The translations under genes and the position numbers were made by a program. DNA of 58,402 nt, from NCBI GenBank assembly GCA_030533085.1, contig JAUNJZ010000014.1, positions 1 through 58,402 of the forward strand, written 5' to 3'. A model generated the notes under the pieces. It saw only the letters and a list, made by a program, of their open reading frames with translations, ran no database searches and was not told where the DNA came from. Below are positions 31,567-57,938 of the stretch, piece by piece. Within the stretch, counting starts at the first letter, position 1. Each line of letters starts with the position of its first letter. Source of the stretch: Synergistaceae bacterium. GTDB lineage: Bacteria > Synergistota > Synergistia > Synergistales > Synergistaceae.

Positions 31567-31567
31567 G

Positions 31568-33298
31568 CTATTCACCGTCCTCTGGCGTTTTGTCTATCAC
31601 TATCCCCGTCTCCGTGTCGCCGTCCAGCAGCACGTCGAAGAGCCCTTCGTAGTGCCGCACGGCGGGGTGCGTGGTGTCGTTCCATTTATGGCTGTCAAAC
31701 CATTCTCTGTTGTAGACGTTCCCCTTCGCCCCGTCAAATACCGGCAGGTAGAGGATATTGTCTCCGTCGAGGTCGAGGAAGAAGTGCGTTCCGTATGACA
31801 GCTCCGGAGCCATTCCCTTTTGCGGAATGCCCAGCTCGACGAGGCAGCCAGCGTTTGACAGCTCGTTGTAGCGCACAGGAACTCCGAGCAGCGGGTTGGA
31901 GCTGCCCCAGCGTCCGGGGCCGACGAGTATGTAGCGCTCGCCGTCAAGCTTGTCGTTGATGTCGCCAACGGCGTATGCGATTTCTGAGAAGTCGGCCTTT
32001 TTGCCGTATATTTCAGGGTCGACGAATACGATATGTTTCGTGCCTTCAAGCCTTCCGTTGGCCACCATGCGGTCTCCCCGCAGGATCGTCTTTTCCGGCG
32101 GCGTATCCGGTATCAGCACGCGCCCTTTGTCGTCGTAGACAGAGAGTGGGCGGAGCTGCACCAGCGTGAAGAGGTCGTCTCCCGCCTCGTACGCGAATTC
32201 CATATCTACCGGCAGCTGAAGCTCCTTTTCAAAGAGAGCGAGCAGCTTTTTGAGGCGGGTAAAGAATTTCGGGCAGCGCCCGGGCAGCTCGGCAAAGGAG
32301 AATATAGGGCGCGGGGCGCTCATGTTCTGCGTGTCGCTGTGTATCCAGTGGAAGGAGTTGTCGGCAAACCACTGCATGTAGCTCTGCGCCATCTTGTGCC
32401 TTTTCAGGATATCCTTCACGGAGCAGGCGATATGCTGCGAGGCGAAGCTCTGCTCGTCAAGATCCACGTAGTCATAATTTTCCTGCGAGTGCGTCACTAT
32501 CTCATGGGGCTTCGTCCCCTCCGGGCGCAGGTTGGGGTTGGTGAGATAGAAGGTCCTGGCGTATGAACGATCCACAGTGCGCGTGCCGAGGCCGAAGCAG
32601 ACGCGCGCGACGCCGTCCTCTTTTCTGATGCGCGGCGACGGGCGGCGGAATACCTGCGAGAAGGCCGCGCCTGCCAGCTCGGGGTAGTACATCCGGCCAT
32701 AGCGGCGTCCGGCTATCGGCTGAAGAAGCACCGCCATGCGCTCCCCGCCCCATTTGATGCCGTGCTTGCGCTTGTATTCGCGCGCGGCCGGATTGTAGGT
32801 CGAGGCGTAAACTATCTTGATCGCCGCCTCCAGCTCCGCGCGGCGCTCCTCTCTGCTGCCGGAGTTCGCGACGAAGCGTGTGGCGTATTTGCCCGCGAAG
32901 GAGAGATTTACGTCGTCTTCGAGCGTCGATGAGGAGCGCACGGATATCGGAACCTCTATCTCGTCGAGTATCTTTTCCAGCGGCTCGCTGAGCGACGGCG
33001 GCAGCGCCGCTTCGCCGCAGATGCGGTAAAGCTCCGGCGCGTCCGAATGTTCGCGCAGATCCATCAGCCGCTCCCAGAGATTGTTCTGCTCCATAAACTC
33101 GTTGAATACGGAGGTGGTGATGACGAAGGAGCAGTCCGGAAGGTGCACGTCGTCAAGCAGCCCGTTCCTTTCCAGCACGAAATGCGCAAAGGATAGTCCT
33201 TTCGCCTTTCCGCCGATGCGCCCGTCTCCGATAAGCCAGCCGCGTTCCTGATAAAATGGCACGGGGTCATATTGTCTGTAGTAATCGCCGTAGTTCAT
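31568..33298 (-). CDS. PPDK-type ATP-grasp protein, upstream tandem copy
   Basis: 576-aa paralogue of the following gene with the same order of parts: GRIGGKAKGLSFAHF, VRSSSTLEDDVNLSFAGKY, LFTLVQLRPLS, then the C-terminal domain with LVGPGRWGSSNPLLGVPV and PELSYGTHFFLDL. It too lacks a phosphohistidine domain, so it cannot carry out the full dikinase cycle alone. AGGAGG lies 6 bases before ATG 33298. It is divergent from ppk with 344 bases between the start codons. The position next to polyphosphate genes suggests a part in phosphate or nucleotide metabolism, but that is inference only. Confidence 0.78.
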   Translation of the reverse strand: MNYGDYYRQYDPVPFYQERGWLIGDGRIGGKAKGLSFAHFVLERNGLLDDVHLPDCSFVITTSVFNEFMEQNNLWERLMDLREHSDAPELYRICGEAALPPSLSEPLEKILDEIEVPISVRSSSTLEDDVNLSFAGKYATRFVANSGSREERRAELEAAIKIVYASTYNPAAREYKRKHGIKWGGERMAVLLQPIAGRRYGRMYYPELAGAAFSQVFRRPSPRIRKEDGVARVCFGLGTRTVDRSYARTFYLTNPNLRPEGTKPHEIVTHSQENYDYVDLDEQSFASQHIACSVKDILKRHKMAQSYMQWFADNSFHWIHSDTQNMSAPRPIFSFAELPGRCPKFFTRLKKLLALFEKELQLPVDMEFAYEAGDDLFTLVQLRPLSVYDDKGRVLIPDTPPEKTILRGDRMVANGRLEGTKHIVFVDPEIYGKKADFSEIAYAVGDINDKLDGERYILVGPGRWGSSNPLLGVPVRYNELSNAGCLVELGIPQKGMAPELSYGTHFFLDLDGDNILYLPVFDGAKGNVYNREWFDSHKWNDTTHPAVRHYEGLFDVLLDGDTETGIVIDKTPEDGE

Positions 33299-44036: not shown

Positions 44037-44059
44037 AGACATTAAGGAGGGTGCGTTTT

Positions 44060-44536
44060 ATGGTGGAGAAAGCGTCGGAAAAGCAGTGGGAGCAGCTTGC
44101 TGAGCTCCTGGGCAAATACCGCGGCACTAAGGGAAGCGTTATTCCCGTGCTTCAGCAGGCACAGGAAATCTTCGGCTATCTGCCCAAAGATGTCCTGATC
44201 GAAATCAGCAACAAGCTCGAAGTCCCCATCAGCCAGATATTCGGCGTGGTGACATTCTATGCCCAGTTCCATCTCGAGCCGCGCGGCAAGAACATCGTCA
44301 GGTCATGCCAGGGAACGGCATGTCACGTCCGCGGGGCGAAGGGCGTACTTAACGCCATTCGTCAGAAGCTCGGCCTTGAAGAGGGCCAGGTAACGACCCC
44401 CGACCTCAAGTTCACCCTTGAGACGGTGGCCTGCATCGGAGCCTGCGGTCTTGCTCCCGTATTCATGGTCAACGACGACACGCACGGCAGGCTTACGCCT
44501 GAGTCTGTTGGTCCGATACTGGACAAGTACGCTTAG
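44060..44536 (+). CDS. hydC: Hydrogenase subunit, NuoE-like (HydC)
   Basis: 158-aa thioredoxin-fold protein like NuoE and HydC of trimeric bifurcating hydrogenases. It carries one [2Fe-2S] cluster: SCQGTACHVRGA and CIGACGLAPV give the four cysteines. Helical N-terminus typical of NuoE (VLQQAQEIFGYLP). The start is ATG 44060, nine bases after AAGGAGG; a GTG at 44051 abuts that site. It passes electrons between the flavin subunit and the hydrogenase. First gene of a tight four-gene operon. Confidence 0.92.
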   Translation: MVEKASEKQWEQLAELLGKYRGTKGSVIPVLQQAQEIFGYLPKDVLIEISNKLEVPISQIFGVVTFYAQFHLEPRGKNIVRSCQGTACHVRGAKGVLNAIRQKLGLEEGQVTTPDLKFTLETVACIGACGLAPVFMVNDDTHGRLTPESVGPILDKYA

Positions 44537-44555
44537 GGAAAGGGAGGAAGGCTAA

Positions 44556-44936
44556 ATGGCAATCAAAAGTCTTGAAGATCTTCGTAAGATAAAGGCAGAA
44601 TCAAAGAAACAGACAGAAGCGAGAAAGCTCAACGACAGACAGATCATCATCGGCATGGGCACCTGCGGCATAGCCGCCGGCGCGCGCGCGGTAATGACGG
44701 CAGTCCTTGAAGAGCTCGCGAAGCGCAACATTCACGACGTGGCCGTTCTTCAGACAGGCTGCATCGGCATGTGCCAGAAAGAACCCCTTCTTGACATAGT
44801 ACGCCCCGGCGAAGACAGAGTCACCTACGGCCCGGTCAGCCCGACCGATGTTCCGCGCATCATTGCGGATCATCTCATCAACGGCGTAGTCGTTGAGGAT
44901 CTCGTGGTAGCGAAGATCCCCAGCAAAGAAGCATAG
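44556..44936 (+). CDS. [2Fe-2S] thioredoxin-like ferredoxin subunit
   Basis: 126-aa protein with a C-terminal thioredoxin-like [2Fe-2S] ferredoxin domain. Cysteines are in GMGTCGIAAGARAVM and TGCIGMCQKEP, and the basic helical N-terminus binds partners. It is related to the N-terminal domain of the next gene. It has GGGAGG before its ATG and a 20-base gap from the first gene. It is an additional electron carrier of the complex, making this a four-component system rather than the minimal HydABC trimer. Confidence 0.87.
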   Translation: MAIKSLEDLRKIKAESKKQTEARKLNDRQIIIGMGTCGIAAGARAVMTAVLEELAKRNIHDVAVLQTGCIGMCQKEPLLDIVRPGEDRVTYGPVSPTDVPRIIADHLINGVVVEDLVVAKIPSKEA

Positions 44937-44956
44937 GTCGAAGGGAGGAATTTCAA

Positions 44957-46747
44957 ATGGCTCTCGTAAGAGCTCACGTGCTGGTCTGCACCGGAACGGG
45001 CTGCGTCTCCTCCGGTTCAAGAAAGGTAATTGCGAAATTTGAAGAAGAACTCCGCGCCAACGCTCTCGACAAGGAAGTAAAGGTCGTCGAGACAGGCTGT
45101 CAGGGATTCTGCGAACAGGGGCCTCTCGTCATCATCTATCCCGAAGGCACCTTCTACACACATGTACAGGAAGCCGACGTTACTGAGATAGTCTCCGAGC
45201 ATCTCATCAAGGGACGCATCGTGAACCGCCTCCTCTTCAAGGAGCCGCTCACGGCGCAGAGCGTTCCCGACTATGCGGAGATCGACTTCTACAAGAAGCA
45301 GCACCGCCTCGTCCTCAAAAACTGCGGCCATATCAATCCCGACTCGCTTGAGGAATACATCGCGGCCGACGGCTACGAGGGACTTGCGAAGGTTCTCCTC
45401 ACAATGACGCCGGAGCAGGTCGTCGAAGAGATGAAGAAGACCGGACTCCGCGGCCGCGGCGGCGGCGGATTCCCCACCGGCATGAAGTGGGGCTTCTGCC
45501 AGAAGTCGCCAGGCCCGAAGAAATACATTATCTGCAACGCTGACGAGGGCGACCCCGGCGCATTCATGGATCGTTCGCTGCTTGAAGGCGACCCGCACGC
45601 GATACTCGAAGGGATGATCATCGGAGCGTACGCCATCGGAGCCGACGAAGGCTATATCTACTGCCGCGCCGAATACCCGCTCGCGATAAAGCGCCTGAAA
45701 CAGGCCATCGCGCAGGCGGAAGAGGCCGGACTTCTCGGAAACAACATCCTCGGAACGGACTTCAGCTGCACCCTCCACATCAAAGAGGGAGCCGGAGCCT
45801 TCGTCTGCGGAGAAGAGACGGCGCTGATGGCCTCCATCGAAGGCAAACGCGGAATGCCGCGTCCACGCCCGCCGTTCCCTGCCGTTAAGGGACTCTGGGG
45901 CAAGCCTTCCAACATAAACAACGTCGAAACCTTCGCCAACGTCCCCTACATCTTCCGCGTCGGCGCTGAGGAATACGCGAAGCTGGGAACCGAGAAGTCA
46001 AAGGGAACGAAGGTCTTCGCCCTTACCGGCAAGATCAACAACACAGGACTTGCCGAAGTCCCGATGGGCATCACGATGCGCGAGATCATCTTCGACATCG
46101 GCGGCGGCATAATCGGCGGCAAGAAATTCAAGGCAGTCCAGATCGGTGGCCCCTCCGGCGGATGTATCCCCGAGCAGCTGCTTGACACCGCTATAGACTA
46201 CGACTCGCTCATCGCCGCCGGAGCGATGATGGGCTCAGGCGGACTCGTCGTAATGGACGAAGACACCTGCATGGTCGACGTGGCGAAGTTCTTCCTCAAC
46301 TTCACGCAGGCCGAATCCTGCGGCAAATGCACCCCCTGCCGCGAGGGTACGAAGCGTATGCTTGAGATGCTCGAGAAGATCACGGACGGCAGAGGTGAAG
46401 ACGGCGACATCGAGAAGCTCGAAAAGCTCGCCTCCTCCATCAAGGCCGGCGCCCTCTGCGCCCTCGGCCAGACGGCTCCGAACCCGATCCTCTCCACGCT
46501 GCGCTACTTCAGAGACGAATATGAGGCGCACATCAAAGAGAAGAGATGCCCGGCCGGAGCCTGCCAGCACCTGCTGAGCTACAAGATAACCGAAGCCTGC
46601 AAAGGCTGCGGCCTCTGCGCGAAGAACTGCCCGGTCGATGCGATCAGCGGCGAACCGAAAAAGCAGTACGTCATTGACCCGGCGAAGTGCATCAAGTGCG
46701 GCGCGTGCTTGACGAAGTGCCCGTTCAAAGCGATCGTGCGCGGCTAA
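44957..46747 (+). CDS. hydB: Hydrogenase NADH-binding flavoprotein (HydB, NuoF-like)
   Basis: 596-aa soluble flavoprotein. Domains in order are: a thioredoxin-like [2Fe-2S] domain (CTGTGCVSSGS, CQGFCEQGP; residues 1-110); a NuoF core with GLRGRGGGGFPTG (FMN/NADH), NADEGDPGAFMDRSLLEGDPHA and the [4Fe-4S] motif ESCGKCTPCREG; and a C-terminal two-[4Fe-4S] ferredoxin (CKGCGLCAKNCPVDA, CIKCGACLTKCPFKA). It is the proposed site of bifurcation between NADH and reduced ferredoxin in homologous enzymes. Strongly expressed-looking codon choice and GGGAGG site. Confidence 0.95.
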   Translation: MALVRAHVLVCTGTGCVSSGSRKVIAKFEEELRANALDKEVKVVETGCQGFCEQGPLVIIYPEGTFYTHVQEADVTEIVSEHLIKGRIVNRLLFKEPLTAQSVPDYAEIDFYKKQHRLVLKNCGHINPDSLEEYIAADGYEGLAKVLLTMTPEQVVEEMKKTGLRGRGGGGFPTGMKWGFCQKSPGPKKYIICNADEGDPGAFMDRSLLEGDPHAILEGMIIGAYAIGADEGYIYCRAEYPLAIKRLKQAIAQAEEAGLLGNNILGTDFSCTLHIKEGAGAFVCGEETALMASIEGKRGMPRPRPPFPAVKGLWGKPSNINNVETFANVPYIFRVGAEEYAKLGTEKSKGTKVFALTGKINNTGLAEVPMGITMREIIFDIGGGIIGGKKFKAVQIGGPSGGCIPEQLLDTAIDYDSLIAAGAMMGSGGLVVMDEDTCMVDVAKFFLNFTQAESCGKCTPCREGTKRMLEMLEKITDGRGEDGDIEKLEKLASSIKAGALCALGQTAPNPILSTLRYFRDEYEAHIKEKRCPAGACQHLLSYKITEACKGCGLCAKNCPVDAISGEPKKQYVIDPAKCIKCGACLTKCPFKAIVRG

Positions 46748-46778
46748 TTTCGGCTAATGGAAGGGGAGTAAAAAGAAT

Positions 46779-48524
46779 ATGGAACTTGTTAAGGTTACAA
46801 TAGACGGCATAACTGTAGAGGTGCCATCCGATTTTACCGTGATCGAAGCCGCTGCCAAAGCCGGAATCCGCATTCCTCAGCTCTGCTATCACCCGGAGCT
46901 TGCCAAGGAGGGCGCCTGCCGCGTCTGCGTAGTGGAGATAGTCGGCGGCCGCGGACTGGGCGCAGCCTGCGTCTATCCCGTAGCGGACGGAATGGTAGTA
47001 CATACGAACACACAGAAGGTACGCGAGACCCGCAAAGCGGTCGTTGAGCTTCTTCTTGCGAACCACCCGCAGGACTGCCTCTTCTGCCAGAAGAATCAGG
47101 ACTGCGAGCTTCAGCAGACGGCTGCCGACCTCGGCATCCGCGAAGTGCCCTACACCGGCGAGAAACGCTCCGCGAAAAAGGACGAGAGCAATCCGAGCCT
47201 CGTGCGCGACCCCAATAAGTGCATCCTCTGCGGCCGCTGCATCAGAGCCTGCCACGAGCGTCAGGGACTTGACGTTTACGCGTTTGTAAACCGCGGCTTC
47301 AAGACCATCGTTGAGCCGGCCTTCGGCCTCGGCCTCAACGAAGTCGCCTGCACATACTGCGGACAGTGCGCCGCCGTCTGCCCGACAGCGGCCATCTGCG
47401 AGCGCGACGACACTGAGAAAGTATTCGCCGCCATCGCCGACCCGAAGAAATACACCATCGTCCAGACGGCTCCCGCGACCCGCGTCGCCCTCGGCGAAGC
47501 TCTCGGCCTGCCCGCCGGCGAAATCGTCACCGGCAAAATGGTCGCCGCTCTGCGCCGCCTCGGCTTCGACAAGGTATTTGACACGGACTTCTCCGCCGAC
47601 CTCACAATCATGGAAGAGGGACACGAGTTCCTCCACCGCGTTGTAAACGGCGGCGTTCTGCCGATGATAACCTCCTGCTCACCGGGCTGGATCAACTTCA
47701 TCGAAATCAAATATCCCGACCTCCTGCCGCACCTCTCGACGGCGAAATCGCCCCAGGGAATGTTCGGCGCCCTCGCCAAGACCTACTGGCCAGAAACGCA
47801 GGGGATACCTGTGGAGGATATCTACAGCGTCTCCATCATGCCCTGCACCGCGAAGAAAGCCGAGTGCGTGCGTCCGCAGCTCCAGAGCAACCCCGGCATT
47901 CCTGATGTTGACACAGTTCTCACCACTCGCGAGCTGGCGAGAATGATCAAAAACGCCGGAATCGACTTCAAGAACCTTCCTGAAGAAGAGTACGACAGCC
48001 CGCTCGGCTCATCGACAGGCGCGGCGGTCATCTTCGGAGTCACAGGCGGAGTCATGGAAGCGGCCCTCCGCACCGTCTACGCCGTCCTCAACGAAGGCAA
48101 AGACATCCCCGGCATCATCTTCGAGCCGGTACGCGGAATGGAAGGCATCAAAGAAGCCACGGTCGACGTCCCCGTCAATGGACAGAACGTCACCGTCAAG
48201 CTGGCTGTAGCCCACACGCTGAAAAACGCGAAGATCCTCATGGACAAGGTTCGCGCCGGCGAAGCCGACTATCACTTCATCGAAGTCATGGCCTGCCCCG
48301 GCGGCTGCATCGGCGGCGGCGGACAGCCCCAGCCGGTCAACGCGGAGATTCGCGCGGCGCGCACGGCGGCCGTCTATCGTGACGACGAGGCGAGCACGCT
48401 CCGCCAGTCGCACAAGAACCCCGATATCCAGGCTCTTTACGACAACTGGCTTGGCAAACCGCTCGGAGAGAAATCACACCACCTTCTCCACACCCACTAC
48501 AAAGCCCAGCCGAGAGAGCTGTAA
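46779..48524 (+). CDS. hydA: [FeFe] hydrogenase catalytic subunit (HydA, NADH/ferredoxin-dependent type)
   Basis: 581-aa hydrogen-evolving subunit. It opens with a plant-type [2Fe-2S] domain (CYHPELAKEGACRVC). Next are the His-ligated [4Fe-4S] motif HPQDCLFCQKNQDC and two [4Fe-4S] clusters (CILCGRCIRACHE, CTYCGQCAAVCP). H-cluster motifs follow: TSCSPGW, MPCTAKKAEC and MACPGGCIGGGGQP. The small-subunit-like C-terminal region ends LLHTHY. With the three upstream genes it forms a cytosolic electron-bifurcating type complex that reoxidises NADH and ferredoxin to hydrogen during amino acid fermentation. The maturation genes hydEFG are not in the window. Confidence 0.96.
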   Translation: MELVKVTIDGITVEVPSDFTVIEAAAKAGIRIPQLCYHPELAKEGACRVCVVEIVGGRGLGAACVYPVADGMVVHTNTQKVRETRKAVVELLLANHPQDCLFCQKNQDCELQQTAADLGIREVPYTGEKRSAKKDESNPSLVRDPNKCILCGRCIRACHERQGLDVYAFVNRGFKTIVEPAFGLGLNEVACTYCGQCAAVCPTAAICERDDTEKVFAAIADPKKYTIVQTAPATRVALGEALGLPAGEIVTGKMVAALRRLGFDKVFDTDFSADLTIMEEGHEFLHRVVNGGVLPMITSCSPGWINFIEIKYPDLLPHLSTAKSPQGMFGALAKTYWPETQGIPVEDIYSVSIMPCTAKKAECVRPQLQSNPGIPDVDTVLTTRELARMIKNAGIDFKNLPEEEYDSPLGSSTGAAVIFGVTGGVMEAALRTVYAVLNEGKDIPGIIFEPVRGMEGIKEATVDVPVNGQNVTVKLAVAHTLKNAKILMDKVRAGEADYHFIEVMACPGGCIGGGGQPQPVNAEIRAARTAAVYRDDEASTLRQSHKNPDIQALYDNWLGKPLGEKSHHLLHTHYKAQPREL

Positions 48525-49569: not shown

Positions 49570-50355
49570 CTACAGACCGTAATACTTGCCGATCTTCTCC
49601 AGCGACTCGCTCCACGGCTGGTAAGCGCCTCTTTCCCTCATTATCTTCCATGCAAGCTCGTTCATGCCTCCCGGCGTGGCGTTATCCGTCATGAAAGCCT
49701 CGGCGCGCCCCTCGCCGCATTCCTGACGCATCAGCGTTGACAGCGCCTCATTCATATAACAGGTATAGTCAACGGCGCTCCGGTAGTCCAGCCCCTTGCT
49801 CATGCACCATTCCGTGATCTCGTTGACGAGACCGTAATACGGCACCATCAGCCCCGTGACCGCGGCCAGCACCTCAAGATCCTTTTCAGCCGCGACCTTT
49901 ATCACGCTCCCGAGCAGCGACAGCAGCTCCTCACAAAGCCGGTCGCAGCCGAAAAGCACCACCGGCCCTATCCTCTTGGCGGCGAAGGGCAGCGGAACGG
50001 CCCTTACGACGCTGCAAGCCGGGGCGAACCATGGCGCGGCCTTTGACAGCTTTGTGCCTGCCGCGATATGGATAATATGATTCTCTTTTCTGAAACGCAG
50101 CGTAGGAGCCACCTTTTCAAGCACCTGCGGCACAAGCGTCGGAAAAACGACATCGGCGCTTTCAATAAGCTCCTGATTTGAAGCCGCGACGACAACCTTT
50201 TCAGGATATGCCTCCGACAGCGCCTCCGTCCTCCGCCTGTCGATATCAAATACAAATATCCGCCCCTCAAACTCAGGCGACGCGCAAAATCCCTTTGCCA
50301 AAGCGGTGGCAATGCCTCCGGTTCCCGTAAATCCGACATCGGCCTTCACAGCCAT
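49570..50355 (-). CDS. ProC-like NAD(P)-dependent reductase, atypical
   Basis: 261-aa oxidoreductase of the pyrroline-5-carboxylate reductase fold. The N-terminal Rossmann domain starts VGFTGTGGIATALAKGF. The C-terminal helical dimer domain keeps TPGGMNELAWKIM, close to the ProC signature SPGGTT. The other ProC signature region, normally SGSGPAY, reads TGLMVPYYG. The substrate pocket is therefore probably changed, and proline synthesis is not assured. It is the last gene of the minus-strand unit with the RpiR regulator, GRE activase and glycyl radical enzyme. It would reduce an imine or keto product of that pathway. GGGGGAGG precedes the ATG. Confidence 0.78.
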   Translation of the reverse strand: MAVKADVGFTGTGGIATALAKGFCASPEFEGRIFVFDIDRRRTEALSEAYPEKVVVAASNQELIESADVVFPTLVPQVLEKVAPTLRFRKENHIIHIAAGTKLSKAAPWFAPACSVVRAVPLPFAAKRIGPVVLFGCDRLCEELLSLLGSVIKVAAEKDLEVLAAVTGLMVPYYGLVNEITEWCMSKGLDYRSAVDYTCYMNEALSTLMRQECGEGRAEAFMTDNATPGGMNELAWKIMRERGAYQPWSESLEKIGKYYGL

Positions 50356-50395
50356 TGCAAATCCTCCCCCTTCTGTAGAGTGAAATCCCCTTTTG

Positions 50396-51262
50396 CTACA
50401 GCTTCTTCACGAAATCATAATCCTTATAGACGAACATATCCGCCGCCAGCACATTCTTCTCGTAATTTTCAAGCTTCTTCTTTATCTTATCGGAATGCCT
50501 GCTGTACATGGCGACCATAAACGAATGGACGAGCGCCAGCACGCAGGCGTTGGCGTCGGCCAGCACCACGTAACGCTGAGGAGTGATGAAGTAGAGCTGC
50601 GACATCGGCACGATAGGCGACAGCTTGCTGTCCGTCACGCTGATGATGCGCACCCCCTTTTCCGCCAGCACCTCCGCTATCTTCTGCACCTCGCTCGAAT
50701 AACGCGGATAGCTGAATACGAGAGCCGTGGACTTCGGCCCTATCATTCCCAGCAGCGATATCAGCATCATGTCAACCTGACTGACGACGTGAACATTTTC
50801 CCTGTAAGCGCAGATAAAATTCGCCGCGTATAGCGCGATGAAATTATGTATGGGGCCGCCGACGAGGAGCAGGTGATCGCAGTCCAAAAGCATCTCGGAG
50901 GCCTTGTCGAAGGAGTCGGGGTCAATGCCGTTCAGCGTCTCCCTCATCAGATCCATCTCCAGGTCGAAAACCCTCCGATAGACCTTGCCGTCCGAATCGG
51001 TATGAGGCTCCTGCCTGAACTGTATATTATTGCTGTTTATCGTCTCCTTGCGGAGGTCGAGCAAAAGCTCCGAAAAGCTGTTATAGCCCAGAGTATAGAC
51101 AAAGCGGGTCAGCGTCGCCTCGCTGACGCCGGCCGCGCGGGCTATCTGCGGCGCGTTCATCAGCGCCACATCAAAGATATTATCGAGAATATACTTTCCC
51201 AATAAATTATGCTTCTTGCTCAATGTGGCAGACATGGACATAATTTTTTCACTGACGCTCAT
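50396..51262 (-). CDS. MurR/RpiR-family transcriptional regulator
   Basis: 288 aa. The N-terminal HTH_6 domain (about residues 5-80) has the ARAAGVSEATLTRFVYTLGY recognition segment. The C-terminal SIS sugar-phosphate-isomerase-like sensor domain (about 115-260) has LLLVGGPIHNFIALYAANF and ALVFSYPRYSSEVQKIAE. The usual GxGxS phosphate loop is altered to GGPIHN, so the ligand may not be a sugar phosphate. It lies between the activase and the reductase gene in the same direction. It is the obvious candidate to bind the AT-rich block shared by the GRE and TRAP promoters. GAGGA lies before the ATG. Confidence 0.87.
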   Translation of the reverse strand: MSVSEKIMSMSATLSKKHNLLGKYILDNIFDVALMNAPQIARAAGVSEATLTRFVYTLGYNSFSELLLDLRKETINSNNIQFRQEPHTDSDGKVYRRVFDLEMDLMRETLNGIDPDSFDKASEMLLDCDHLLLVGGPIHNFIALYAANFICAYRENVHVVSQVDMMLISLLGMIGPKSTALVFSYPRYSSEVQKIAEVLAEKGVRIISVTDSKLSPIVPMSQLYFITPQRYVVLADANACVLALVHSFMVAMYSRHSDKIKKKLENYEKNVLAADMFVYKDYDFVKKL

Positions 51263-51388
51263 CTGATATCCTCACCCTTGATCTTCACGGATTATTTTAT
51301 CTGTAAATGATAAATTCCAGCCGCGGCTAAGTCAATACGAAAGGGCGCTTTCTAAAAAGAAAGAAAAGAAATCAGTCTTTTTATCCCC

Positions 51389-52297
51389 TTATCCAATGCG
51401 GAGAGCGACATTCTTTAATCTTTCGAGCGGGAAGACGGCAGCCTCTATCTCCTCCCGCGACGGCGGCAGCAGATCAGGGAATGGCGCTTCCCGCCCGAGA
51501 TTTCTGTACGTCTCGATTCCAAGTCTGTGATAAGGAAGAATCTCAACGGCGGAGAGATTATGGAGCCGCTCGCAGAAAGAGGCCATACTCTCATAATTCT
51601 CAACGTCATCATTCACCGTCGGTATAAATGGCGTGCGTATCGTTATCTTCGTCTTGCCTGAGGCGTCGATTCTCAATATATTGTCGAGTATCGCCGCGTT
51701 ATCCGCCCCAGTGTAACGCCGGTGCTTCGCGCCGTCCATGATTTTTACGTCAATGAAAATTCCGTTCAGATAATCGAGCAGAGGGGCGACGGCCTCCCAA
51801 CCGGCGAAGCCGCAGCTCTCTATCGCCGCGTCTATCCCGCTCTCGCGGCAGAGCGTCAGAATCTCCAGCGCAAACTCCGGCTGCATAAGCACCTCTCCGC
51901 CGCTAAGCGTGACGCCGCCGCCATGATGAAAAAATATACTGTCCTTCTGTATCTCCTCCATAACCTCGCCGGCCGTCATCTCCCGCCCGTAAAGCCTTAC
52001 CGCGTCGTGCGGACAGGCATCCACGCAGGCAGAGCAGCCGCTGCAGCCGGACTTTGCCCGCATCGTCCCGCCCTCGCTCTTATAGATAATCCCCTCAGGG
52101 CAGGCGCTTTCGCATCTTCCGCAGCGGAGGCAGGCGGAGCGCAGAAAAGCGGCCTCATACGCTATGCTCTGGGATTCCGGCGTGGAACACCACGCGCATT
52201 TGAGAGGACAACCCTTAAAAAACACCACAGTCCTCAGGCCGAAACCGTCTTTATTTGAAGATCTCTCAAAGCGCAGAACCCTGCCCCTCCGTACCAT
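51389..52297 (-). CDS. Glycyl-radical enzyme activating protein (radical SAM)
   Basis: 302-aa radical SAM activase that puts the glycyl radical on the neighbouring enzyme. The radical SAM cluster motif is KGCPLKCAWC (CxxxCxxC). Two inserted [4Fe-4S] ferredoxin motifs, CLRCGRCESACPEG and CSGCSACVDACPHD, mark the long GRE-activase form and not the PFL activase. GGGVTLSGGEVLMQ is the SAM-binding GGE region. The start is ATG 52297 with GGAGGAGG seven bases upstream; a frame to 52327 runs into the GRE stop. Lies 23 bases after the GRE gene. Confidence 0.93.
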   Translation of the reverse strand: MVRRGRVLRFERSSNKDGFGLRTVVFFKGCPLKCAWCSTPESQSIAYEAAFLRSACLRCGRCESACPEGIIYKSEGGTMRAKSGCSGCSACVDACPHDAVRLYGREMTAGEVMEEIQKDSIFFHHGGGVTLSGGEVLMQPEFALEILTLCRESGIDAAIESCGFAGWEAVAPLLDYLNGIFIDVKIMDGAKHRRYTGADNAAILDNILRIDASGKTKITIRTPFIPTVNDDVENYESMASFCERLHNLSAVEILPYHRLGIETYRNLGREAPFPDLLPPSREEIEAAVFPLERLKNVALRIG

Positions 52298-52320
52298 AAC
52301 GTATCCTCCTCCGCTGGCGG

Positions 52321-54708
52321 CTAACAAGCCTTTTGCATGTGCGATATGCTTGTTCTGGCTATAATATCGTCCTGAACGTCCTTATCAAGCTCGACAAAGA
52401 AGGCAGTGTAACCCGCCACCCTCACAAGCAGCCCCTTGTACTGCTCCGGATGCTTCTGGGCGTCCAGCAGCTTCTCCTGATCCACGACGTTGAACTGAAC
52501 GTGGAAAACGCCGAGCGAGCAGAGTCCTTTCAGCAGCGTCATCATGGCCGCCGTCCCCTCGTCGTTGGCGAAGAACTCCGGCATCATCTTCATATTGAGC
52601 AGAGTCCCCTGAATATAGCGGTTGTGCGGAATGTGCGAGATAGACTTCAGCACCGCGGTCGGCCCTTCAACATCGGTGCCGCACATAGGGCTCACGCCGT
52701 CGCCGAGAGGCTTCCAGGCGGAGCGTCCGGAGGGAAGCGCGCCGACCTCCATTCCAAAGGCCGTGTTGCCCGTCACAGGCAGGATACCGGGACTCATCGT
52801 GCCGAAATGGCTGCTGTAATTCTCTATCTCATCCGCGATAAAGGTGAAAAGATCGCCGGCCATTTTATCGACCCACTTGATGTCGTTGCCGTATTTCGGC
52901 GCGTTAAGGCATAGACGGCGGATATCAGGCTCGTTAGCAAAGTCGTCGGCCAGAGCGTCGAGCAGCTGCTGCATCGTTATCTTTTTTTCGTCGAATACAA
53001 GCAGCTTTACGGCCGCGAGGCTGTCCACAAGATCCGCCACGCCGATCATATCTATACCGTTGCCCACATGGTACTTTGTGCCGCCGTCAGTGTAATCCAC
53101 GGCGTTTTCAACGCACTCGCGGTGCGTGAGCGAAAGCGTTGGGACCGGCCTGCACTCCCTGCTTATGTAGTCCATAATGTGGCTGCCCTTGACGATGCAC
53201 TTTATGCCGTAGCTGATGTGCTTCTTCACAGCCGCCTCAAACTCTTCGTAGCTTTTGAAATTCCTTGGGTCCTCCGTCTCGACCGTCATAAATCTGTTGT
53301 ACTTGCGCGATACGCCTTTCAGCAGCGCGGCCTCCACCATTCCGCCGAGATTCAGGTCGGCGAACGACGTAAAGCCGCACATCTTGCCCTCAAGATTCGT
53401 CTCGACGCAGCCGCATGGGTTCCAGTTGTAAGCCTCGCGCAGCGGAACGCCCTTGTTCATCATCATGGAGGTTCCGACCTCGTCGCAGTGGAAGGCGGGG
53501 AAGCCGGTTCCCAGCTTGATCAGATCGACAACCTTTTTCAGGAAGGAATCAGGGTTTCTGGACATGCTGTATCTGACGGAGAGCGATGGCTGGTAAAGCT
53601 GCACATCCATCGTCGCCTGAAGTATCATATAGGAAACGTCGTTGACCGCGTCCGCTCCGGTACGGTCGACTCCGCCGGCGCAGAGATTCTGATACATCGG
53701 ATAGCCGGCTGAATATTTCGCGGATATTTCATCCTGGAAGATGCACGGCTCGGAGAACTTGACCCAGAGACAGTCAAGCAGCTCCTGCGCCTCGTCGGGA
53801 GTAATCTTGCCGGCCTCCACGTCCGCCTTGTAGAAGGGATAAAGATACTGATCCATCCTGCCGGGGTTGTAGCTCGCCGCGTTCTGCTCCATGAAGATAA
53901 CTATGTGATAGAGATAGAAAGACTGCACCGCCTCGCGGAAGCTTTCCGCCGGATACTCCGGCACCTTCGCGCATATTCTGGAAATTTCCAGCAGCTCGGC
54001 CTTCCTCGCTTCGTCCTCTTCGAGAGCCGCGAGCCGCGCCGCCTCCTCTGAATATCTTCTTGCCAGCGCGACAACTCCGTCGGCGCTCGCAAGGAGCGCT
54101 TTGTAGTATATTTCCTTTTCGTAATCGCCGGGCTTTGCCGTATCGAGCTGCGCCATCTTCTCTACGATACGGCTGCGGATGGCGATAATGCCTTCATTGA
54201 GAACGTCCGTGTATCCGGCCGTCACCTCGCCCCAGCCGCGGACAAACTTTCTGTCGATAAAGACGGCCCCGCACTCCTTCATCGTCTTAACGTCCTCCGG
54301 TATCTGCGCCAGCCACTTTTCGTAAAGAGAGCGCCCCTCCCAGAAGGGCTTTATCTCCTTGCGGAAAAGCTCCTTTTCCTCCTCGGAGATGTAGAAAGGG
54401 TCGTAGCGTCTGCTGCTGATCGTCTCCAGCTCCTTGTCAAGCACCGACCAGCAGCTGTCCGGAGAAACGATGCCGCCGCGTATCTTGCTGCCGGAGCAGC
54501 CGACGATAAGCTCCTGCGGCCAGATAGTCACGCTCTTGTTCTCGCACTGATATTTTACGCCAAGCGCCTTGCGAAGCACCCAAGGCAGACCGCCCGTCGC
54601 TTTGAAACTTCTGGTGAGGAGCAGCGCCGGTTCAAGGTCAACCTCCGGGCGCGTACCGACGACCCGTGATTTAAGACATTCTATTCTTTTCATGTATTCC
54701 TTCGTCAT
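52321..54708 (-). CDS. Glycyl radical enzyme of the GCVE type (substrate unassigned)
   Basis: 795-aa oxygen-sensitive radical enzyme. The thiyl-radical Cys434 and general-base Glu436 lie in NPCGCVETN. The radical glycine is Gly766 in LLVRVAGYTAFF. The GCVE motif excludes pyruvate formate-lyase and groups it with dehydratases, C-N or C-S lyases (glycerol dehydratase, choline lyase, hydroxyproline dehydratase HypD, isethionate lyase). Length and Cys/Gly spacing are close to HypD. However, the segment before NPGRMDQ reads EQNAAS, without the aspartate I recall in HypD. AGGAGGGGG lies 8 bases before the ATG. Upstream is a TTGAAA-N17-TATCAT promoter shared with the TRAP operon. Substrate and reaction are open. 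Confidence 0.9.
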   Translation of the reverse strand: MTKEYMKRIECLKSRVVGTRPEVDLEPALLLTRSFKATGGLPWVLRKALGVKYQCENKSVTIWPQELIVGCSGSKIRGGIVSPDSCWSVLDKELETISSRRYDPFYISEEEKELFRKEIKPFWEGRSLYEKWLAQIPEDVKTMKECGAVFIDRKFVRGWGEVTAGYTDVLNEGIIAIRSRIVEKMAQLDTAKPGDYEKEIYYKALLASADGVVALARRYSEEAARLAALEEDEARKAELLEISRICAKVPEYPAESFREAVQSFYLYHIVIFMEQNAASYNPGRMDQYLYPFYKADVEAGKITPDEAQELLDCLWVKFSEPCIFQDEISAKYSAGYPMYQNLCAGGVDRTGADAVNDVSYMILQATMDVQLYQPSLSVRYSMSRNPDSFLKKVVDLIKLGTGFPAFHCDEVGTSMMMNKGVPLREAYNWNPCGCVETNLEGKMCGFTSFADLNLGGMVEAALLKGVSRKYNRFMTVETEDPRNFKSYEEFEAAVKKHISYGIKCIVKGSHIMDYISRECRPVPTLSLTHRECVENAVDYTDGGTKYHVGNGIDMIGVADLVDSLAAVKLLVFDEKKITMQQLLDALADDFANEPDIRRLCLNAPKYGNDIKWVDKMAGDLFTFIADEIENYSSHFGTMSPGILPVTGNTAFGMEVGALPSGRSAWKPLGDGVSPMCGTDVEGPTAVLKSISHIPHNRYIQGTLLNMKMMPEFFANDEGTAAMMTLLKGLCSLGVFHVQFNVVDQEKLLDAQKHPEQYKGLLVRVAGYTAFFVELDKDVQDDIIARTSISHMQKAC

Positions 54709-54771
54709 GACAGATTCCCCCTCCTGATATGTTGTGCCGTATATTGATTGAAGCCTCTTGTTTATGGCTGA

Positions 54772-54827
54772 ATGATATCATATAGAAATTATTTTTTCAA
54801 GATATAATTTAATAAAATTATTTTGTT
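54772..54827 (-). promoter_or_regulatory. GRE operon promoter with shared 42-bp block
   Basis: On the minus strand TTGAAA (54800-54795) and TATCAT (54777-54772) are 17 bp apart, giving a leader of about 60 bases before the GRE ATG. The region 54786-54827 matches 58096-58137 at 36 of 42 positions. Both copies contain two AAATTATTT elements with starts 29 bp apart. This is a likely binding site for the cluster's RpiR regulator. Confidence 0.7.
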
Positions 54828-54910
54828 ATTTTCTGATAACATTAAGCTTCTTTTCACCCAGAAAATATATCCGAAACTCCATCGTTCCTTTGACCGGCAA
54901 TATAAATGAT

Positions 54911-54950
54911 AATGGCCACGTATTCTGTAATATCGGAATACCTGGCCATT
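54911..54950 (-). terminator. Hairpin between TRAP genes and GRE gene
   Basis: AATGGCCA-C-GTATTC (54911-54925) against GAATAC-C-TGGCCATT (54936-54950): 14 pairs with a single C-C mismatch. On the minus strand it follows the dctM stop by about 17 bases and is followed by AT-rich sequence. It is a probable, perhaps partial, terminator that separates the TRAP transcript from the GRE transcript. Confidence 0.65.
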
Positions 54951-54967
54951 GCTTTTGAGAAACTTTA

Positions 54968-56263
54968 TCAGCGCCCCAGCACCAGCCGCGGCAGCCACAG
55001 CGCCAGGTCGGGGAAATATGTAACCGCTATCAGCGTCGGCAGCCAGCATGTTACCAGCAAAATCATATTCGGCTTCAACATGGCGGAGAGCGGTGTCTTT
55101 GTCACCTGAATGCCAAAGTAAAGGGCGGGCGCTGTCGGAGGCGTCAGCAGGCCGATAGCGACGTTCACTCCCATTATCGCGGCAAAATGGATTGGGTCAA
55201 TGCCAAAGCTCTGCACCACAGGCAGCAGAATCGGCGTTCCCAAGAGAAGACAGCTTGTGTCGTCCATTATCATTCCCATGACAAGAACCACAATGTTCAC
55301 GCCCAGCAGGATAACCGTTTTGTCGTCGGAAAAGCTTCTCAGGAAGTCCGCTATCATCCCCGGCATATCTTCCATAATATATATGCGGCTCAGCATCATG
55401 ACGCAGAATATCATTACCATGATTACACCGGTAGTTGAGGCCGTTTCCACAAATGTCTGATAGAGCTTTTTCACCGTAAGCTGCCTGTAGATAAAAAAGC
55501 CTACCGGAATGGAATATATGATTGCGACGGCCGCGGCTTCCGTAGGCGTGAATGTTCCGCTGTATATGCCGCCGAGTACGATCACCGGCATCAGCAGCGC
55601 TGGAATGGCGGCCGCCGTATCGTCGCGAGCCATTTTAATAAAGTCGCGCGTCGGCATTTTTGCGCGCACCTTTATATTGGGGTCGTTTCTCAGGATGATC
55701 AGACTCACTATTGAAAGCAGGGCGACCAGCATCAGTCCCGGGCCGACCGTGGCGAGGAAACAGGCAAGAAGCGGCTGACGCCCGGCCCACGAATAAAGAA
55801 TCATGTGAGCGCTCGGCGGTATCAGCAGTCCCAGAGGACAGGCGCTCGTGAGCAGCGTCGCGACATACGCCTTTGGATAGCCCTGCTCTTCAAAGCGCGG
55901 AAGCATGATGCTGCTTATGCACGAAAGGGTCGCAAGGCTGCTTCCAGCAATGGAGCCAAATGCCGCGCTGGCGACGACGGCGACTATTGCCAGACCTCCC
56001 TTTATACGCCCGACAAATATTCCGACAAAGTTGACAAGGCACTTGCCAATGCCGCTGCGTTCCATGACGAGCCCGACCGCTATGAACAGCGGCACGCAGA
56101 GCAGCACAAGGGAATTGCAGACACTATATCCATATTTCATGAGGAAGCTGTCCTCATACCCGATCGTATGTATCAAAAACAGAGCCGCCAGCACAAAGAC
56201 ATAGGGAAGATACATTCCGATGAGCAGACCGAAAATTATAACCAATATCGCAAACGGAAGCAT
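54968..56263 (-). CDS. dctM: TRAP transporter large permease (DctM)
   Basis: 431-aa membrane protein with about twelve hydrophobic segments, the ion-translocating subunit of a tripartite ATP-independent periplasmic transporter. Family landmarks are FIAVGLVMERSGIGKCLVNF, ASAAFGSIAGSSLATLSCI, GLLIPPSAHMILYSW, the TPTEAAAVAIIYS motif and GLLTPPTAPALYFG. GGAGA lies before ATG 56263. The gene begins 2 bases after dctQ ends. Last of the three TRAP genes. Confidence 0.95.
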   Translation of the reverse strand: MLPFAILVIIFGLLIGMYLPYVFVLAALFLIHTIGYEDSFLMKYGYSVCNSLVLLCVPLFIAVGLVMERSGIGKCLVNFVGIFVGRIKGGLAIVAVVASAAFGSIAGSSLATLSCISSIMLPRFEEQGYPKAYVATLLTSACPLGLLIPPSAHMILYSWAGRQPLLACFLATVGPGLMLVALLSIVSLIILRNDPNIKVRAKMPTRDFIKMARDDTAAAIPALLMPVIVLGGIYSGTFTPTEAAAVAIIYSIPVGFFIYRQLTVKKLYQTFVETASTTGVIMVMIFCVMMLSRIYIMEDMPGMIADFLRSFSDDKTVILLGVNIVVLVMGMIMDDTSCLLLGTPILLPVVQSFGIDPIHFAAIMGVNVAIGLLTPPTAPALYFGIQVTKTPLSAMLKPNMILLVTCWLPTLIAVTYFPDLALWLPRLVLGR

Positions 56264-56265
56264 TG

Positions 56266-56808
56266 CTAAAGCTCTCCTTTCTCAGCCGCGGCATCGGGCA
56301 GGGGCGTCGTTATCTCTTCCAAAAACTGCACTACCACGTAGAACGCCATCACCACAAAACCGACAGTTACAGCGCTCATAGAGGTCATCAGGGGAAGTCC
56401 CCACGCGGAGGTCGTCGGCCATATTTTGACGCCGTTGACGATATAGGCGACAGAGAGGTTAAGCGTCTCTATAGCGACGAGAGACTGGAGCAGGCTGGCG
56501 AATATGCGAAGCGCTTTCTTCCCTTTCGGCGGAAGTATCCTCTCCAGAATATCGGCTCTGACATGTTCATGTTTTTCCATTGCGTAGGAGCTTCCGATAA
56601 AGTACATCCAGAATGCTGATATCATTACAATTTCGTCATAACCGAAAAGATCGACCCTGAGCACGTAGCGGCAGATAACGACCGCGCCGAGTATTCCTAT
56701 CATCACGCAGCTTGTAATAAAGAGAATGAGCTCCTGTATTTTCAGAAGCCACCCCCAGAATAAAGAGGCTTTTAATCTATCCAGACAATCTCTTATAGTC
56801 TTTAGCAT
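56266..56808 (-). CDS. dctQ: TRAP transporter small permease (DctQ)
   Basis: 180-aa four-helix membrane protein that joins the binding protein to DctM. Segments are around IQELILFITSCVMIGILGAVVICRYVL, DEIVMISAFWMYFIGSSYAM with the typical charged KHEHVRADIL loop, LLQSLVAIETLNL and VTVGFVVMAFYVVVQFL. GAGGG precedes the ATG. Between dctP (87-base gap) and dctM. Confidence 0.9.
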   Translation of the reverse strand: MLKTIRDCLDRLKASLFWGWLLKIQELILFITSCVMIGILGAVVICRYVLRVDLFGYDEIVMISAFWMYFIGSSYAMEKHEHVRADILERILPPKGKKALRIFASLLQSLVAIETLNLSVAYIVNGVKIWPTTSAWGLPLMTSMSAVTVGFVVMAFYVVVQFLEEITTPLPDAAAEKGEL

Positions 56809-56894
56809 TGTGAGCGATCACCCTCTCTTTCCCGTCAGCCTCCGCCCGCGCGGCTTTGAGCGAACGGAGGCCTGACGTTTTATTGTTTTTCTGT

Positions 56895-57938
56895 CTATTT
56901 GCCTGAAAGCTTTTTCTGGTTTGCGACGACTGCCGCTTCAAGAATCTTGAGCGTATCGCTGCCGTAAACGTCGGCATACTTCGGCCAGACCTTCGCTCTG
57001 ACCTCCGCGCTGCGCTTCATGCATTCCTCTGGGGAATATTTGATAACCGTCACGCCATGCTCCGCAAGCAGCTTCTCATACTTTTCCTCTACTGTTCTGG
57101 CGACCGGCACCCATTTTTCAAGCTGAAAGGCGATGCATTCCTGAACGATCGCGCGGTTTTTCTCTCCGAAGGACTCCCAAAGATCCTTATTGATAATCAG
57201 CCATCCCGGCGTTGAACCCATGTTGTTGGCGTCAAAGCATTTGATCATGTCGCGCGCCTGAAGATAGGCGTCCTCCGCAGGAATATTGGAGGCGCCGTCT
57301 ATCTGTCCGGTCTGAATGGCGCTGAATACTTCCGCATAGTCCATTGTCACCGTATTGTATCCCATTTCGCTCGCCATATCCCTGACAGAGGGCATCGCCG
57401 GCACTCTCAGCGAGACGTTTTTCTTCGTGTTGTCCTTTACATTTTGCGGAACTTTGCTGAGGATGAATCCAATCCTCGGATCGACCCATCCGCCAAGGCT
57501 CACAAATCCGGCCTCTTTTGAGTACTGTTCAATAAGCTTGCAGAAGGGCGATTCCGGATCCAGAAACATAAGCTCATATTCTGGGAATCCGTTGGTGCAG
57601 AGTCCGGGAAGATTTCCAATATCAAGCTTCGGATGATATCTTTTTGTCAGCCAGGTAAACGAAGCGTCGATTGTTCCAGCCCTGACTTCTTCGATTGAAT
57701 CTTCGTATGTACAAAGCTGTCCGGAGGGGAACACCTTAAAATCTATCTCTCCGTTCGTCTTTTCTTTTATCATCTTCGTCAGCTCTTCAAGCGCCTGGCT
57801 TGTGTAGCTGTCAGCCGGATATGGCGCGTAGAATTTCAGACGCCTTTTCGCATAGGCAGAATCACAATTCAAGGTCAGTACTACAAAAGCAACTACGATT
57901 ACGCTGATAATTCCTACAATTCTTCTCGTGTTACGCAT
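56895..57938 (-). CDS. dctP: TRAP transporter substrate-binding protein (DctP)
   Basis: 347-aa periplasmic binding protein. The signal peptide spans about residues 1-30 (IVGIISVIVVAFVVLTLNCDSAYA). Conserved DctP features are KIDFKVFPSGQL-like residues (EIDFKVFPSGQLCTYEDSIEEVRAG) and NVSLRVPAMPSVRDMASEMGYNTVTMDYAEVFSAIQTGQIDGASN. The latter includes the arginine (SLRVPA) that usually clamps a ligand carboxylate. The ligand is therefore probably an organic acid. The start is ATG 57938, with GTG 57941 as alternative; AGGAGGT lies upstream. First gene of the TRAP operon. Confidence 0.92.
   Translation of the reverse strand: MRNTRRIVGIISVIVVAFVVLTLNCDSAYAKRRLKFYAPYPADSYTSQALEELTKMIKEKTNGEIDFKVFPSGQLCTYEDSIEEVRAGTIDASFTWLTKRYHPKLDIGNLPGLCTNGFPEYELMFLDPESPFCKLIEQYSKEAGFVSLGGWVDPRIGFILSKVPQNVKDNTKKNVSLRVPAMPSVRDMASEMGYNTVTMDYAEVFSAIQTGQIDGASNIPAEDAYLQARDMIKCFDANNMGSTPGWLIINKDLWESFGEKNRAIVQECIAFQLEKWVPVARTVEEKYEKLLAEHGVTVIKYSPEECMKRSAEVRAKVWPKYADVYGSDTLKILEAAVVANQKKLSGK

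Follow-up and report, generated by a model that had tools for sequence, protein, structure and literature searches.

Gene content and conservation of the locus

The window, the whole 58,402-nucleotide stretch of DNA analyzed here, is one entire contig (C17) of a Synergistaceae genome of 2.63 Mb that is 95% complete. Seven co-oriented genes, all on the minus strand, encode the DctP, DctQ, and DctM components of a tripartite ATP-independent periplasmic (TRAP) importer, a glycyl radical enzyme (GRE), its activating radical S-adenosylmethionine (SAM) enzyme, an RpiR-type regulator, and a ProC-like reductase. Every gene type in this block is backed by Pfam and NCBIfam, and the compact set described in the initial annotation was confirmed as follows.

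56895..57938, minus strand: dctP, TRAP substrate-binding protein (PF03480, NF037995), with a signal peptide and the conserved Arg of the LRVPAMP motif
56266..56808, minus strand: dctQ, TRAP small permease (PF04290)
54968..56263, minus strand: dctM, TRAP large permease (PF06808; TIGR00786 above cut-off)
52321..54708, minus strand: GRE of the N-methyl-4-hydroxyproline dehydratase clade (PF02901, PF01228; tree and residues)
53401..53409, minus strand: GRE active-site motif Cys434-Val-Glu436, read from the DNA
52411..52413, minus strand: GRE radical glycine Gly766, read from the DNA
51389..52297, minus strand: GRE-activating radical SAM enzyme (TIGR02494), whose listed frame starts at TTG 52327
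50396..51262, minus strand: RpiR-type regulator with HTH_6 and SIS domains (PF01418, PF01380)
49570..50355, minus strand: atypical ProC-like reductase without SGSGPAY (PRK06476 and TIGR00112, both below cut-off)

The likely start of dctP is the ATG at 57938, which has a good ribosome-binding site. The contig ends 464 bases past this ATG and 395 bases past the longest DctP frame, so that sequence further upstream is unseen. The activase scores 299 bits against TIGR02494 (cut-off, 174) and carries GCPLKCAWC and two 4Fe-4S motifs; ATG 52297 is a likelier start for it than TTG 52327. Scans for promoters and terminators around the operon returned consensus matches only.

The full block is found in the same order in L032, a locus of the complete genome G015, and in L033 of genome G026. 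The proteins of L032 are 81% (GRE), 94% (DctM), 90% (DctP), 74% (RpiR), and 71% (ProC-like) identical to those of the window; for L033 the values are 81% (GRE), 78% (DctP), and 61% (both RpiR and ProC-like). This repetition indicates that the gene order is not due to chance and that the block is a conserved unit.

Assignment of the glycyl radical enzyme

Cys434, Glu436, and Gly766, the three GRE residues named in the initial annotation, were verified on the DNA, and Gly766 lies within the invariant RVAGY motif. The GCVE Cys loop, the RVAGY Gly loop, and a dedicated radical SAM activase, all characteristic of the GRE eliminase superfamily, are present. The sole NCBIfam model that the protein passes is the generic PFL2-3 subfamily. 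No NCBIfam equivalog model matched the dehydratase clade described below above its cut-off, and its members are consequently annotated only as generic formate acetyltransferase or glycerol dehydratase family proteins.

Several specific assignments were rejected. HypD (NF043068) was reached with 602 bits against a cut-off of 1100, and Glu161, Ala278, and Met338 replace His160, Asp278, and Asp339 of that enzyme. HpsG and HpfG gave 608 and 452 bits (cut-off, 1000 each), and the curated cut-offs for PFL and indoleacetate decarboxylase were likewise missed. Close kinship to IslA was discarded at 32% identity to isethionate lyase 7KQ3. The best-scoring NCBIfam model, CutC (TIGR04394), was rejected as an assignment at 706 bits (cut-off, 1050).

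A sequence search of the PDB returned uninformative depositor names ("formate C-acetyltransferase," "benzylsuccinate synthase"). Because these names are misleading, the identity was settled by the titles of PDB entries found in a fold search, for which an AlphaFold model of the GRE (mean predicted local distance difference test score, 78.6) served as the query. The top match was 8ID1, the N-methyl-cis-4-hydroxy-L-proline dehydratase of Intestinibacter bartlettii, with 62% identity over 784 columns, and the second was 8IOF, the N-methyl-cis-4-hydroxy-D-proline dehydratase of Clostridium sp. FS41, with 49%. CutC (about 40%), HypD (34%), and isethionate lyase (32%) followed. Judged by title and date, the paper behind the two structures is probably that of Jiang et al. 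from 2024 (ACS Catal 14:4407). The GRE group was already described in 2024, and the window GRE is not an orphan; the initial annotation had called the pathway undescribed, a description that no longer fits an enzyme whose clade has been solved as 8ID1 and 8IOF.

These comparisons bear on the idea that the TRAP importer of the operon serves a sulfonate lyase or a C-N lyase of the choline type. CutC is the top NCBIfam model, and one paper on a C2-sulfonate lyase GRE (PMC6453916) is said to mention TRAP transporters, but the score lies far below the CutC and HpsG cut-offs, and the identity to an N-methyl-4-hydroxyproline dehydratase far exceeds that to CutC or isethionate lyase. We regard such a lyase as extremely improbable.

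The window genome also encodes a true HypD, above cut-off, on another contig, where no reductase is adjacent to it.

Phylogeny of the GRE clade

The trees included many sequences from Synergistota along with those of the 8ID1 and 8IOF types. A clade holding 8ID1 and 8IOF and excluding HypD, glycerol dehydratase, and the glycerol dehydratase-like tandem GRE received 100/100 support. The window GRE forms one branch with those of L032, L033, L034, and L035, all from Synergistaceae (97/99 and 98/99 in two trees). It is not on the 8ID1 branch; 8ID1 pairs with L091 (100/100), and the 8IOF group stands apart (100/100). The branching order among the remaining branches is weakly resolved, and an approximately unbiased test against a joint clade of the window branch and 8ID1 was marginal (P = 0.036). 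This placement puts the branch inside the N-methyl-4-hydroxyproline dehydratase clade and outside both characterized subgroups. What is new, and well supported, is a separate branch of five members in which each GRE stands beside an atypical ProC-like reductase. The initial annotation would have given up its proposal if the GRE clustered firmly inside a characterized group with all pocket residues conserved. For the broad clade this is nearly the case, with two substitutions among the pocket positions compared; for the characterized subgroups it is not, because the window GRE is on a separate branch.

Residues of the substrate pocket

Residues of HypD that contact or serve the substrate have been described (PMC7077986), and the pockets were compared at alignment positions mapped from HypD rather than at the ligand contacts of 8ID1 itself. 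HypD F152, R156, H160, W277, D278, and K326 correspond to D152, R157, E161, a gap, A278, and Q325 in the window GRE and to N, R, E, a gap, A, and Q in 8ID1. HypD S334, D339, F340, Y450, and T645 correspond to S333, M338, Y339, D451, and V645 in the window GRE and to S, M, F, D, and V in 8ID1. The window GRE and 8ID1 agree at 10 HypD-mapped positions (156, 160, 278, 326, 334, 339, 434, 436, 450, and 645), share the GCVETN motif, and differ at two, residues 152 (D/N) and 339 (Y/F) of the window protein. Within the clade, Tyr339 is found in the window protein only, and Asn152 is restricted to the 8ID1 branch.

At these positions the GRE is therefore not HypD-like but 8ID1-like with two substitutions. 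The acidic HypD residue that the initial annotation had reported as lacking is indeed absent, Asp278 of HypD being Ala278 here and Trp277 falling in a gap. HypD shares with the window enzyme the type of reaction, the logic of a dehydratase joined to a reductase of the pyrroline-5-carboxylate (P5C) type, and the Cys434/Glu436 numbering, but it is only 34 to 35% identical, and its His160, Trp277, Asp278, Asp339, Tyr450, and Thr645 are all replaced. 8IOF belongs to the same larger clade and has Ser, Thr, and Glu where the window GRE has Ala278, Tyr339, and Asp451.

The TRAP importer and the neighborhoods of related GREs

DctP, DctQ, and DctM, which together define a TRAP system, are all present. 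The window DctM is 62% identical to that of L091 (8ID1 group), 67 to 69% to those of L043 and L009, and 55% to that of L080. For L009, L043, L091, L080, and L013 the overall range is 46 to 69%, compared with about 25% for the TRAPs beside other GRE loci, and the window DctP is 38 to 41% identical to the DctP proteins of L009 and L043, which carry a clade member that we call GRE-B. The importer type had been raised in the initial annotation as an argument against a proline-type pathway, an argument that fails here, as the same TRAP subfamily also accompanies four other branches of the GRE clade. An importer shared among branches of the clade speaks for a set of related substrates of the hydroxyproline type, and this subfamily could be used as a marker of such pathways. 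Sequence and fold searches with DctP returned distant TRAP binding proteins only, those from the fold search being no more than about 24% identical, with no ligand named.

Other genes lie near clade members as well. L009 encodes an MttB-like methyltransferase, a corrinoid protein, an MtaA-like methyltransferase, a corrinoid-activation protein, and a TRAP system; L091 an MttB-like protein, a TRAP system, and an ornithine cyclodeaminase-family protein; and L013 a proline racemase-family protein with a TRAP system. L047, which holds an 8IOF-like GRE, encodes a BCCT-type transporter and a P5C dehydrogenase that scores 683 bits (cut-off, 614). Independent neighbors around the clade, among them the Xaa-Pro dipeptidase-like and YbaK-type proteins of L034 and L035, handle proline-type or methylated-amine compounds, which counts in favor of a hydroxyproline-type substrate. 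The combinations differ between branches: the place of the MttB-like protein seen at L091, on the 8ID1 branch, is taken in the window branch by the ProC-like reductase, and relatives of 8IOF adjoin P5C dehydrogenase and BCCT transporters, not a ProC-like gene.

Around the 8IOF-like GREs, a conserved set was observed in L047 (8012 to 15262) and L096 (3878 to 15328). Besides the GRE and an activase, it comprises an NAD-binding dehydrogenase-like protein, 81% identical between the two loci, and one of unknown family, for which the value is 80%; beside the set are the P5C dehydrogenase in L047, a molybdopterin aldehyde oxidoreductase in L096, and a BCCT transporter.

The ProC-like reductase

The reductase resembles ProC and PRK06476 in its sequence family and in its N-terminal dinucleotide-binding motif, GFxGxGG, but it stays below both curated cut-offs, with 175 bits for PRK06476 (cut-off, 254) and 64 bits for TIGR00112 (cut-off, 197). 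TGLMVPYYGL replaces SGSGPAY, whose absence the initial annotation had reported correctly; the motif is missing throughout the subfamily. The protein may nevertheless still function as a P5C reductase and is a candidate for a noncanonical reductase of this type.

A tblastn survey covered the neighborhoods of 28 loci, several of the 24 loci outside the branch being short contigs. A ProC-like gene lies beside the GRE at all five loci of the branch, the window included, and at 0/24 other clade loci (Fisher test on 5/5 versus 0/22, P of about 1e-5, kinship disregarded). By kinship the pairing may be a single event. It has been kept in two otherwise unrelated settings, the window type with TRAP and RpiR and that of L034 and L035, where the accompanying genes encode a short-chain dehydrogenase/reductase, an Xaa-Pro dipeptidase-like protein, a YfcC transporter, a small PRK09732-like protein, and a YbaK deacylase-like protein. 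The five reductases form one group (90/86), and their tree agrees with that of the GREs. More distant relatives at 47 to 50% identity (L068, L069, and L070) adjoin an ornithine aminotransferase-type gene, confirmed in L069 by NCBIfam (TIGR01885, 507 bits; cut-off, 378). Since ornithine aminotransferase produces P5C, these neighbors suggest that the reductase is directed at P5C-type imines.

The reductase might instead be a general P5C reductase, acting on P5C from HypD or ornithine, whose position beside the GRE has no meaning for the pathway. In the 95% complete window genome it is the single clear ProC-family match (63 bits), the next reaching 23 bits over the N-terminal third only, and the HypD of this genome lacks an adjacent reductase, as such a role would have it. 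Yet the gene stays beside the GRE in both sub-branches despite their differing neighborhoods, and genomes G015 and G020 keep the pairing although they contain other, better-scoring ProC homologues. We consider a housekeeping role of this kind improbable. A biosynthetic role based on ProB and ProA is unlikely as well, because no proA was found above cut-off in four genomes, the window genome among them.

A six-membered ring would account for the atypical reductase. In that case, hydroxypipecolate would be dehydrated to piperideine carboxylate and reduced to pipecolate by what is expected to be identical chemistry, and both the GRE and the reductase do deviate from proline-type enzymes. However, both characterized relatives, 8ID1 and 8IOF, use five-membered rings, and the P5C dehydrogenase and proline racemase-family neighbors in the clade favor a pyrroline, which leaves hydroxypipecolate a distant prospect.

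A proposed pathway for hydroxyproline-type compounds

The operon is real and coherent, and an enzyme group described only recently accounts for most of it. We propose, with a probability of roughly 0.7, that it serves the catabolism of a 4-hydroxyproline-type zwitterion by import, radical dehydration, and imine reduction, a claim made at the level of the substrate class. Chemistry, substrate, and regulation are what we infer here; the gene identities, catalytic residues, clade membership, and synteny were observed. The TRAP system would import the 4-hydroxyproline-type compound. The activase would install a radical on Gly766, which the GRE would pass to Cys434. By analogy with the HypD mechanism (PMC7077986), on which this proposal is modeled, Cys434 would abstract a hydrogen at C5, the ring carbon adjacent to the nitrogen, and the C4 hydroxyl would leave with the help of Glu436, yielding a P5C-type imine or iminium. 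The ProC-like enzyme would reduce this with NAD(P)H to a proline or N-methylproline skeleton, and RpiR would regulate the operon. The more general scheme of the initial annotation, in which a GRE eliminase other than HypD converts a carboxylate to an imine for a coupled imine reductase, appears to have been right.

The most likely single substrate would be an isomer of N-methyl-4-hydroxyproline, to which we give close to even odds. Several observations weigh against it. Unlike L009 and L091, neither the window nor any of the remaining four branch loci was found to hold an MttB-type demethylase, so that an N-methyl substrate would need to arrive ready-made. The N-methyl route would also require a ProC-type reductase that accepts an N-methyl iminium. 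Asp152 takes the place of the Asn of the 8ID1 branch, and Tyr339 is peculiar to the window protein. RpiR/SIS regulators usually sense phosphosugars, a point that touches the hydroxyproline-type proposal as a whole.

The lack of MttB at all five loci would suit an unmethylated 4-hydroxyproline isomer that HypD refuses, such as cis-4-hydroxy-L- or -D-proline, with P5C as the product and proline as the end point. The branch is separate from the N-methyl enzymes, its genomes already hold HypD for trans-4-hydroxy-L-proline, and the reductase family is elsewhere tied to ornithine aminotransferase, that is, to plain P5C. The sister loci L034 and L035 encode Xaa-Pro dipeptidase-like and YbaK/prolyl-tRNA deacylase-like proteins; genes of these types are expected with peptide-derived or tRNA-mischarged proline analogues. 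Set against this, the checked pocket positions are almost those of the N-methyl enzyme 8ID1, and importers of this type occur at MttB-bearing loci. We hold the unmethylated substrate, the main alternative to the N-methyl one, to be rather unlikely; other rings or compounds share the remaining probability. It is possible, at somewhat less than even odds, that the branch takes a substrate new to GREs, such as an unmethylated cis-4-hydroxyproline isomer or hydroxypipecolate, and restores the saturated ring with a noncanonical imine reductase.

As the end of the proposed 4-hydroxyproline-type pathway, a proline-specific reductase was looked for in the window genome and not found among its four GrdB-family proteins, whose best scores were with sarcosine, betaine, or generic models.

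The proposal places an operon that had no annotation within a radical chemistry of hydroxyproline derivatives that was described only recently. Because such compounds originate in the tissues of plants and animals, their anaerobic fate matters for gut, rumen, and digester communities.

Related GREs in the window genome and elsewhere

A scan of the genome contigs returned two relatives only.

GRE-B, a member of the N-methyl-hydroxyproline clade, is present in two copies, L009 (9297 to 11756, contig C23) and L010 (10798 to 13194, contig C20), which are 99.9% identical over 2,425 bases; outside these copies L009 and L010 do not match. The pair may have arisen by gene conversion or by a duplication in the recent past, or it may be an effect of the assembly.

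In L010 (7628 to 14132), GRE-B is part of a tandem of two GREs and two activases that is conserved across Synergistota (L036 to L040, L042, L044, L045, and L092 to L095). The second GRE has the unusual NCVE, not GCVE, as its Cys motif; its closest PDB entry is glycerol dehydratase (639 bits), and it falls below every NCBIfam equivalog cut-off. This NCVE enzyme may be more novel than the operon studied here.

A large quaternary-amine island on contig C23 (L009, 5506 to 18356; L079, 3133 to 8188) contains two MttB-family proteins with corrinoid proteins, a corrinoid-activation protein, a BCCT-like transporter, a TRAP system, and a GRE. Its content suggests demethylation of hydroxyproline betaine ahead of dehydration. 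In all, the window genome encodes five MttB-family proteins.

GREs of the same clade also occur in Enterococcus, at L099 (11998 to 15155) on the 985-kb megaplasmid NZ_CP081847 of Enterococcus raffinosus and at L014 (10001 to 13158) of E. florum. Both are accompanied by an activase, and neither has a ProC-like reductase, an MttB, or a related TRAP system in its vicinity.

Elsewhere in the window, two adjacent proteins (29827 to 33298) each carry the N-terminal, ATP-binding domain of pyruvate phosphate dikinase, and their genes overlap by 8 bases. Co-oriented genes at 44051 to 48524 encode a 2Fe-2S thioredoxin-like protein, a Nuo51-type flavoprotein, and an iron-hydrogenase-like protein, as in an electron-bifurcating hydrogenase.

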